A stretch of 64,000 nt of DNA from Bursaphelenchus xylophilus. Lineage: Eukaryota > Nematoda > Chromadorea > Rhabditida > Aphelenchoididae. The stretch is taken from positions 2,232,001-2,296,000 of the forward strand of contig CAJFCV020000002.1 of the NCBI GenBank assembly GCA_904066235.2, read 5' to 3'. A model generated the notes under the pieces. It was not told where the DNA came from and made no database searches. It worked only from the letters and a program-made list of their open reading frames with translations. This document shows, piece after piece, positions 26,401-57,286 of the stretch; within the stretch, counting starts at the first letter, position 1, and each line of letters starts with the position of its first letter. A program made the position numbers and the translations under genes.

Positions 26401-29400
26401 TTAGAAAGGAGTTGGCAGACAGTAGAGAGTAGAATAGACATTTATTTTTTAAAATTCTATGGAGTTCACAGAGGCAATGCCTCGAGTGCGACAAGACAGA
26501 TTTGGAATAATTAGCCTAAATTTGACATCCTTTTGCAAGCTTATTGCATGAAAAGTTTTCCCCTTTTTTCAATAGGAAAAGGCGACGTTCCTACAAAAAG
26601 ATTTTCCTCGCGAAATTGGCAGAGATATATATGGAAAAATCCCTTTCATTATCTGCCGCCTTCCATACCTTGCGCACTCCGTAGAGAATGATGAGTACTA
26701 ATGGGTCCATAAAATACGTAAAATACAATACTTTCGTCGACATACACGGCACGCTCGCGAAAAGTGCACGTTGCGATTGCAAAAAGAAGTCGCGCCAACC
26801 ATGGCTATTTTGGCTGTCGCTTTCACCCTGACGTTTTCGCACAGTTCAAGTCGCAAAAATCGCTCGCGACTTTACGAACGAACTAGTTTCATAAATCATT
26901 TTTTGTTTGGAGTAACGGAAAAGTATTTATTTACAAATCCAATCTGGACAGGTGCCAATTAGAACAAAACCCAATTCAAAACACCCTAGAAACCACCCCA
27001 AAATTCCCCAATGATATCACCCCACCCCTCCACACTCCTCAACCGCCATATGTGGCAAGAGAGAACAAAAGTAAAGTCAAGAAGTTAATGGAGTGAATTG
27101 CAAGGCCCCCTCTCTCTTCTCGCCACTTCACCTGCTGCTAATCGGGGCCGGGTAAAATAAAAAAAATTCTTATTTTCCGGACTCTCGATAATCCGATAAT
27201 CGCCCCCTAGCACATTATATTTTTTGCTTATTATTTCATTAGACACCCGTATTTGAGTGATGGTAAATGGAAGGTAATTATTAGAGGAATTTGGGTTGGA
27301 AAATGAGGGGGAAGCGGGTCGAAAAAGTTGATTGGAAAGTAGGCATTTACAATGGGAGATGCCCTCCATTGCGATGCTCAGATTTTCTTCAAATCCTGCA
27401 CACATTTGGGTATAGGCCATACATCAATTCCCGAAAGTTTTAGCTCGCGCTTTGCAGGGGCAGCCGAGATTTGGAACGATCTTTGACGCCGAGAGAGACC
27501 GTAGAGGGCAATATCTCCACAAAAAATCAGTTTTCTCAGCGCTACGTTACGGCAAAAAATGTGTTCTTTCCGACCGCTCTCCGCGTTTCGCGTACTCTCT
27601 CGCCCATAAAGATCGTTGAATATCTCGGCTGATCTTGCAAATCGTGAGCTAAATTTTTCAGGAATTGTTATGTGACCTATGTCCATAGCGTGCCCAAAAT
27701 TTAAAGAAAATCTGAGAGTCGCATTTGAGGTATATACTGTATATGATGCTTGCCTCGTTAGACAAAAATAAACCTCCCTACAACAAAAATGCTTTATAAA
27801 AATTTTTTTTTGATCTCTCGTAATTCGTTATACCGAATTTATCATTGTATTCGAAAGTCTCCAAAATCTTCTCAAACTCCAAACCCACCATGATGTGCTG
27901 TTTGCTCAAGTCGATCTTCCGTTCCCTCGGCTTGTACTCGAATGCCACCGGCTTGAGGACGTTCTCGTCGTTTATCGAACTCTCAGCCAGCCGCTTCTCC
28001 AAGTCACTCGTGGAATGGCTCCGTCCGTCCTCTGAATTCGACGCAGTCGGCGGCGGAGTTTTGGAACCCGAAGTCTGCTCTTCGTCCGATCGGGAGCTGG
28101 AAAATTGAAGTCAAATTTGTCTGAGGAGGTATAAAAGCTATACCAGTGTAGACAATAACAAAAGATTTAAAATACTGTTTGCCGGGGGTGAAGAAAAAAT
28201 GGCAAGTGGGGGTAATTTACCTAGGTAATTTAACAATTTTTTACAATGGTGTCCCTTGATCTTTGAGAAAGTTTTGTCAGCTTCGCGGTCAATTGCGATC
28301 AACATTTTTGACCTGAACAAGAAAAAAACTTTACAAAGCTATTTTTGTCTCACATCAAGCACCACAAAATAAATTGTTTCAGGGCAAAATAAAACTGCTT
28401 TTCCCTTCAGCAAAACGGCTGGAGCAGTGGCAAAGGTAAGGTACTCATTATTTTTCCAACAGAATGATAGATAGTATGTCTTAGAAAATTCTATTTTTCT
28501 CCCACAGAATGATGGCATGCCCTAGAAAATTCTATAAGACAAAGGATTCATGATGATCTGTTTATGATCTTAAAGAGTAAAGATAAAAATTCAGACGGAA
28601 ATCTTTAGCATCGCATGTGATAAAGGAGAATAATGCAACTAGATCTAATTTACGTTCATTTCCAAAAAAATTTGGGCTCAGCCGGTGATCGAAACCGGGG
28701 CCTCTCGCACCCAAAGCGAGAATCATACCACTAGACCACTGAGCCGCGTTGTCTGCACCGCGCACACGAGATGTCGCTTTAGGGGATAGAGATAAAAAAG
28801 GCGAAAAATCATGTTCGTTTTTCTCTCTCAAAACCCCCTTTTTTTTTTTTTTTTCTCTCTCGAAAACCCCCTCTTTTATCTCTATCTCCTGAGGCGATAT
28901 CTCACGCGTGCGGCGAAGAAAGCGCGGCTCAGTGGTCTAGTGGTATGATTCTCGCTTTGGGTGCGAGAGGCCCCGGTTTCGATCACCGGCTGAGCCCAAA
29001 ACTTTTGGCAAAATCATGTTCGTTTTTCTCTTTTACAAGACCACAACTAAACCATTCGCCGGGCAGAGCCGGGCCCATAATTACGTCCAGGTCAAGTTTA
29101 GAGAACAACAGAAAGAACGTTTGCTTCAGAAGGCGGGAGTTGGCTTAGAGCATATGCCCAGCCTTGGAAGGTCTATTACAAAAAATGTAATGACCAATTT
29201 CCCAGACCTCCCGCCATAACAATCCCATGACAAATTTTTTCAACCCGGAAATGGAGCAGTGAGCGGCCAGCCAAAGCCTCCTCAATTCTCACACCTAAAC
29301 TAAGCATGGCTGGAAACCGGGCCAGCCCGGCCCGGCCCGGCCCGGCCCGCAGGCCCGGGCTTAAATCTCCAAGCCCGGCCCGGGCCCGGGCTTGGGAAAT

Positions 29401-57286: not shown

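Follow-up and report, generated by a model that had tools for sequence, protein, structure and literature searches.

Head-to-head tRNA-Pro(UGG) gene pairs and a locally copied palindrome in one region of the Bursaphelenchus xylophilus genome

In the genome of Bursaphelenchus xylophilus, most genes for one proline isoacceptor stand in head-to-head pairs. One palindrome composed of such a pair has been copied to several nearby sites, some of the copies being flipped or mirrored, and homology often, if not always, ends at a tRNA gene. We favor the reading, at a probability of about 0.55, that ordinary tRNA-Pro(UGG) genes multiplied within the region as head-to-head pairs through errors of DNA copying or recombination at tRNA genes, with no transposase involved. 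Our starting point was a 64-kb stretch of contig C2 (C2:2232001-2296000), here called the window; the genome searched comprises 78.25 Mb in 8 contigs. A protein-phosphatase exon used as a query returned 6 hits, and the 4 named ones among them are nematode proteins.

ARAGORN identified nine 72-nt tRNA-Pro(UGG) genes in the window, namely four head-to-head pairs and one single gene (Table 1), placing the pairs exactly where a sequence-only reading of this DNA had put them. The spacer lengths of 156-180 bp given in that reading were equally accurate (180, 156, 168, and 164 bp for pairs 1-4). The Rfam gathering score was passed by 8/9 genes; the right member of pair 3, which fell below it, is the sole substituted pair member (A to G at gene position 14). 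With the tRNA included, the longest ungapped inverted-repeat arms of pairs 1-4 measured 143 nt at 88% identity, 91 nt at 97%, 131 nt at 92%, and 194 nt at 95%. When 556 nt around pair 4 were folded as single-stranded DNA, one long hairpin resulted (z = -41 against 100 shuffles). Between the single tRNA-Pro gene and pair 4, two tRNA-like relics could be discerned by eye (window 54740-54820 and 55300-55345); Rfam lists neither of them.

Table 1. Features of the tRNA-Pro(UGG) loci, in positions of the 64-kb window
Feature	Position	Strand	Basis or remark
tRNA-Pro(UGG), pair 1 left	28674..28745	-	ARAGORN; Rfam RF00005, 53.4 bits
tRNA-Pro(UGG), pair 1 right	28926..28997	+	ARAGORN, Rfam RF00005
tRNA-Pro(UGG), pair 2 left	30161..30232	-	ARAGORN, Rfam RF00005
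tRNA-Pro(UGG), pair 2 right	30389..30460	+	ARAGORN, Rfam RF00005
tRNA-Pro(UGG), pair 3 left	44616..44687	-	ARAGORN, Rfam RF00005
tRNA-Pro(UGG), pair 3 right	44856..44927	+	ARAGORN; below the Rfam gathering score
tRNA-Pro(UGG), single, unpaired	54487..54558	-	ARAGORN, Rfam RF00005
tRNA-Pro(UGG), pair 4 left	55495..55566	-	ARAGORN, Rfam RF00005
tRNA-Pro(UGG), pair 4 right	55731..55802	+	ARAGORN, Rfam RF00005
Pair 1 spacer	28746..28925		180 bp; centre flipped relative to pairs 2-4
Pair 2 spacer	30233..30388		156 bp; alignment
Pair 3 spacer	44688..44855		168 bp; alignment
Pair 4 spacer	55567..55730		164 bp; genome search, only at the four window pairs
Pair 1 left outer flank	28552..28641		opposite-strand homolog of 30502-30592; 78%, 92 columns, E 6e-14
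Pair 2 right outer flank	30502..30592		homologous to 28552-28641
Pair 4 left outer arm, beyond tRNA	55328..55494		86% to right outer arm
Pair 4 right outer arm, beyond tRNA	55803..55976		alignment, DNA fold
22-nt exact copy of spacer-centre piece 28805-28826	29010..29031		just outside pair 1 right tRNA

The spacers had been described as the inverted 5' leaders of the two genes. Mirror leader arms of about 56 nt are indeed present, but they flank a centre of 47-84 nt (the distance between the ungapped arms) that is partly asymmetric, common to all four window pairs, and flipped in pair 1. By global alignment pairs 2, 3, and 4 are oriented alike, and the spacer of pair 1 scored higher flipped than direct against each of them (84.0/55.0 to pair 2, 91.5/52.5 to pair 3, and 73.0/64.0 to pair 4), the preference being weakest for pair 4. 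The centres of pairs 3 and 4 are themselves partly palindromic, and gapped alignment of these two spacers to their own reverse complements covers the whole length, at 70% and 80%. Spacers of this family are about 76-84% identical between pairs, and a genome search that ignores very common words found the window spacer only at the four window loci.

Because the four pairs have a partly asymmetric centre in common, a preformed palindrome was copied, and independent inverted duplication at each window locus is rejected. The leader arms are as similar within pairs (mean identity 79.7%, n=4) as between pairs (78.9% on the same side and 78.2% on the other, n=12 each). Thus, the palindrome predates the copying to the four sites or arose together with it, and the arms have not been homogenized inside each window pair since; arm-to-arm gene conversion in the window family is not supported, the arms being no more alike within pairs than between them. 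As the arms carry no side-specific signal, no single clean order of copying can be read from them. The common centre and the equal arm identities bear out the proposal of a repeatedly copied palindrome.

To the whole genome we could assign 39 tRNA-Pro matches, all candidates being scored, and ARAGORN, run on the window and the other tRNA-Pro loci, called 23 of them UGG, 13 AGG, and 3 CGG. Nine head-to-head pairs account for 18 of the 23 UGG genes, and every one of these pairs lies on contig C2 at 2.26-3.44 Mb. The pairs had been regarded as a dispersed family; five further UGG pairs do exist outside the window (A1, A2, and A3 at 2.594-2.598 Mb, B at 2.613 Mb, and C at 3.444 Mb), but the dispersal is only regional, with all nine pairs lying within 1.2 Mb. 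The remaining five UGG genes stand alone, three of them on C2 and the other two on C1. Two of the 13 AGG genes form one head-to-head pair on C1. A parallel array of seven same-orientation AGG genes, also on C1 (C1:166829-168858), has five members spaced 184-189 bp start to start and represents the ordinary tandem mode in a sister isoacceptor of the same genome. The spacers of all ten head-to-head pairs measure 136-247 bp, a range that the UGG pairs span by themselves.

Searches with four other tRNAs gave 73 matches (Lys 14, Ala/Cys-like 22, Ile 17, and Arg 20, 4 of the 20 Arg matches spanning only 58 of 73 positions), and among these 73 no divergent pair was closer than 2236 bp. A generic tRNA B-box pattern matched the genome 1325 times, compared with 57 times for the reversed pattern. 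The first 100 of the 1325 matches included 12 divergent pairs 98-106 bp apart, one at 179 bp, and one at 585 bp; none of these first 100 fell at 220-360 bp, the spacing expected of tRNA-Pro pairs. The exact tRNA-Pro(UGG) sequence had no match in viral contigs.

Pairs A1, A2, and A3, 0.3 Mb from the window pairs, constitute a second spacer family, which the genome search detected at those three loci on C2 only. The A1 spacer is a near-complete palindrome of 247 bp (81% to its own reverse complement). Those of the neighbors A2 and A3 mirror each other (score 97 flipped and 16 direct), and only slightly more than half of A1 aligns with either, from which we read a probable loss of most of one arm; palindromes are unstable, so arm loss is to be expected. 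Alignment of each spacer to its own flipped sequence scored 42, 58, 72, and 95 in pairs 1-4, 151, 23, and 9 in A1-A3, 12 in B, 10 in C, and 0 in the AGG pair, with shuffled spacers at 1.5 at the 99% point; B, C, and A3 thus hold at most a weak palindrome. The spacers of B (145 bp), C (136 bp), and the AGG pair (148 bp) lie outside both families. That of the AGG pair is non-palindromic and unrelated, which indicates that head-to-head pairs can also arise otherwise.

The sequence-only reading had noted nothing obvious in common among the flanks of three pairs and had taken the tRNA 3' ends for the ends of the unit. Sharp ends of this kind are present only in part. In the window, pairs 1-4 have spacers in common and flanks mostly not, but in 3/9 UGG pairs the palindrome extends 72-175 bp beyond the tRNAs, with mirror flanks 86% identical over 175 columns in pair 4 (167-174 bp past the tRNAs), 90% over 155 in C, and 83% over 72 in A2. 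The outer arms of these three pairs differ by 10-17%, and the sequence further out is unlike on the two sides. In pair C, the tRNAs and their 3' flanks are mirrored and the spacer barely so. The outer arm of pair 4 matched only its own mirror image in the genome. Between pairs, the sole clear match beyond the tRNAs joins the left flank of pair 1 to the right flank of pair 2; these two pairs are flipped relative to each other, their outer flanks homologous and their inner flanks not matching. A simple inverted triplication for pairs 1 and 2 was rejected, as the flanks do not fit. One large segmental duplication was likewise rejected for most loci, only the pair 1 left and pair 2 right flanks clearly matching beyond the tRNAs. 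Such a duplication had been named beforehand among the cases that would speak against a mobile unit, and this objection applies in part; some flanks are indeed common within or between units, but the loci are not one large duplication. Three weaker flank similarities were left out of the argument. The right flank of pair 2 resembles the left flank of pair 3 at 1 in 1000 shuffles, but 496 such comparisons were made and an AGG one gave 0 in 1000; the left flanks of A3 and B align over 49 columns (E 4e-4), and the right flanks of A2 and A3 score 24 where the shuffle 99% point is 20.

No target-site duplication was found at the ten pairs, in agreement with the earlier reading: the longest direct repeat averaged 6.2 for the 10 own flank combinations and 6.26 for 90 cross pairs. 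The motif AAAATTTT immediately adjoins pair 4, A3, and C on either side, and AAATTT does the same at A1; these motifs coincide with the terminator and read nearly the same on both strands.

The tRNA genes themselves appear intact. ARAGORN assigned all 23 UGG genes to tRNA-Pro(tgg), and 21/23 are identical, the right gene of pair 3 and one single gene on C1 each differing at one site; the common sequence is thus carried by 17/18 pair members and 4/5 single genes. A T4 run starts at +4 to +11, within 11 nt of the 3' end, in 23/23. From the near-identity and the T4 runs, both arms of the pairs are probably working genes. By hand numbering, the 23 UGG and 3 CGG genes have T53-A61 in place of G53-C61, a pair nearly invariant in tRNAs, and the 13 AGG genes have A54. 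The altered B box of the tRNA-Pro genes may affect the binding of Pol III factors.

Other inverted or mobile-like elements were encountered. At C1:440-475 kb lie local units of about 130 bp with a core similar to 5S rRNA (three sub-threshold 5S matches within model positions 21-58) between inverted ends that resemble the T-arm and 3' end of a tRNA; there are at least 15 near-full copies within 72 kb among the best 40 of 152 candidates scored. The 12 close divergent B-box pairs are located in this interval, and those inspected are copies of the 5S/tRNA-like element, making this a divergent unit of a second kind in the genome. At C1:407 and 516 kb, inverted elements carry tRNA-like sequences pointing inward (tail to tail), with arms of 74-119 nt at 86-94%; ARAGORN called no tRNA at either. 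In the window, a plus-strand ORF at 9894-12521 encodes an integrase core (below its cut-off) and DUF5641, a domain set that we take to be that of Pao/BEL-type retrotransposons.

How might regional amplification have proceeded? First, a tRNA-Pro gene would have been duplicated in mirror image together with its leader and as much as about 170 bp of 3' flank, perhaps through a template switch from the leading to the lagging strand at a stalled fork, which would leave mirror arms around a short centre. The resulting tRNA-spacer-tRNA unit was then copied to nearby sites by a mechanism that may have involved recombination anchored in the near-identical 72 bp, with copying tending to begin or end at tRNA genes, and some pairs were mirrored again or had their centre flipped. 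Finally, spacers and outer flanks would have drifted, whereas selection together with ectopic gene conversion preserved the sequence of almost every tRNA copy, a difference that would make the ends appear sharp at the tRNA 3' ends. Pair 4, with its palindromic flanks and an outer arm that matches only its own mirror image, is a candidate for the founder locus. Several observations count against this model: no intermediate form or empty site was seen, and the flanks of most pairs are unrelated though their spacers are about 76-84% identical, a combination not easily explained by segmental duplication followed by decay. The lack of support for arm-to-arm conversion in the window family and the AGG pair, head to head around an unrelated spacer with no palindrome, also count on this side. 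Nor does the model explain the selectivity for tRNA-Pro(UGG) over the other isotypes searched.

Parts of this scheme have precedents. According to the accessible text of a survey by Bermudez-Santana et al. (2010, PMC2888827), tRNA genes are barriers to replication forks and local duplication is their likely source, and antiparallel tRNA neighbors show a head-to-head bias in some clades and a tail-to-tail bias in Caenorhabditis. Our pairs resemble those of the survey in being antiparallel neighbors for which local duplication is suspected; unlike them, they form a palindromic family with a common spacer that holds most genes of one isoacceptor, of which that text makes no mention, the string 'palindrom' being absent from it. 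In yeast, ODIRA is described in PMC10766186 as producing mirror duplications with a short non-palindromic centre of 40-80 bp, near the 47-84 nt that separate the ungapped arms of the four window pairs, and as leaving unstable palindromes that are later rearranged by recombination, another likeness. However, it yields inverted triplications that include an origin, whereas the tRNA-Pro arms measure about 0.1-0.25 kb and a simple inverted triplication is at odds with the flanks seen at pairs 1 and 2. The ectopic gene conversion through which tRNA genes evolve in concert, reviewed in PMC4981973, likewise involves near-identical dispersed copies and local and non-local copying that resembles mobile elements; here, in contrast, the spacer between two tRNAs is also common across loci.

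Fold-back elements and MITEs are short, hairpin-forming units bounded by long inverted repeats. The tRNA-Pro units are equally short, have long inverted repeats, and could form hairpins, and a fold-back element using tRNA genes as terminal inverted repeats and a transposase acting in trans would account for common spacers with mostly differing flanks; inverted elements with tRNA-like parts are, moreover, present elsewhere in the genome. Nevertheless, such an element is unlikely. Its two spacer families would reside at only four and three loci of one contig in the genome search, without genome-wide dispersal, no target duplication exceeds the cross-pair background, the ends are intact tRNA genes past which the palindrome runs in 3/9 UGG pairs, and the spacers of B and C show little palindrome. 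The confinement of the spacers and the missing target duplications ruled out a genome-wide mobile element as the leading reading. Of the two origins put forward in the sequence-only reading, the mobile fold-back element is therefore not supported (window spacer at four loci only, no excess of end repeats, one contig), and inverted duplication where replication stalls, with later spread, is the better fit. We give tentative room to a spreading unit that needs no transposase: tRNA genes would supply both the breaks, through fork stalling, and homologous ends for repair, so that the palindrome is pasted time and again into nearby sites and single tRNA genes are turned into mirror pairs.

Rather doubtful, though still to be reckoned with, is the idea that selection for tRNA-Pro(UGG) supply maintains the head-to-head arrangement as a functional unit, in which one Pol III upstream region, about a nucleosome long, serves both genes and to which the palindrome is secondary. 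The common sequence in 17/18 pair members agrees with it, as do the similar lengths of the B, C, and AGG spacers outside both families and the cross-family scores of 17-33 between window pairs and A2/A3, above the shuffle background (99% at 1.5). On the other hand, five UGG genes, of which four carry the common sequence, have no partner, the 73 matches to other tRNAs contain no such pair, and UGG spacer length varies from 136 to 247 bp. Gene conversion among old head-to-head pairs at unrelated sites, in which tRNA-anchored conversion overwrote the spacers and no unit moved, would explain common spacers with differing flanks as well as the mosaic appearance of A2 and A3: of 50 leader sites, one arm shares 33 with window pair 1 left and 26-27 with A1 left, and the other arm shares 33-35 (A2) or 28-30 (A3) with A1, unrelated leaders mostly giving 13-22. 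We nonetheless consider it fairly improbable, as the mosaic is based on short ungapped leaders and conversion leaves unexplained how nine pairs of one isoacceptor came to lie within 1.2 Mb. Palindromes are also a known source of assembly artefacts. That hairpin reads created these pairs is very hard to credit, given leader arms that differ by 17-24% within each window pair, outer arms that differ by 10-17% in pair 4, C, and A2, unlike sequence further out on the two sides, and nine loci affected.

Head-to-head pairing of tRNA genes, their local duplication, and mirror amplification are all already known; a palindromic tRNA pair family with common spacers that holds most genes of one isoacceptor was not found in searches of the open-licence literature, which yielded only papers of a general kind. 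Little is understood of the ways in which tRNA genes spread and gain copies in eukaryotic genomes, and long palindromes are as a rule unstable. With its nine alignable mirror pairs of a single tRNA, this chromosome provides a natural series for palindrome formation, asymmetric decay, and recopying, and the series bears on a possible role of tRNA genes as end points of inverted duplication.
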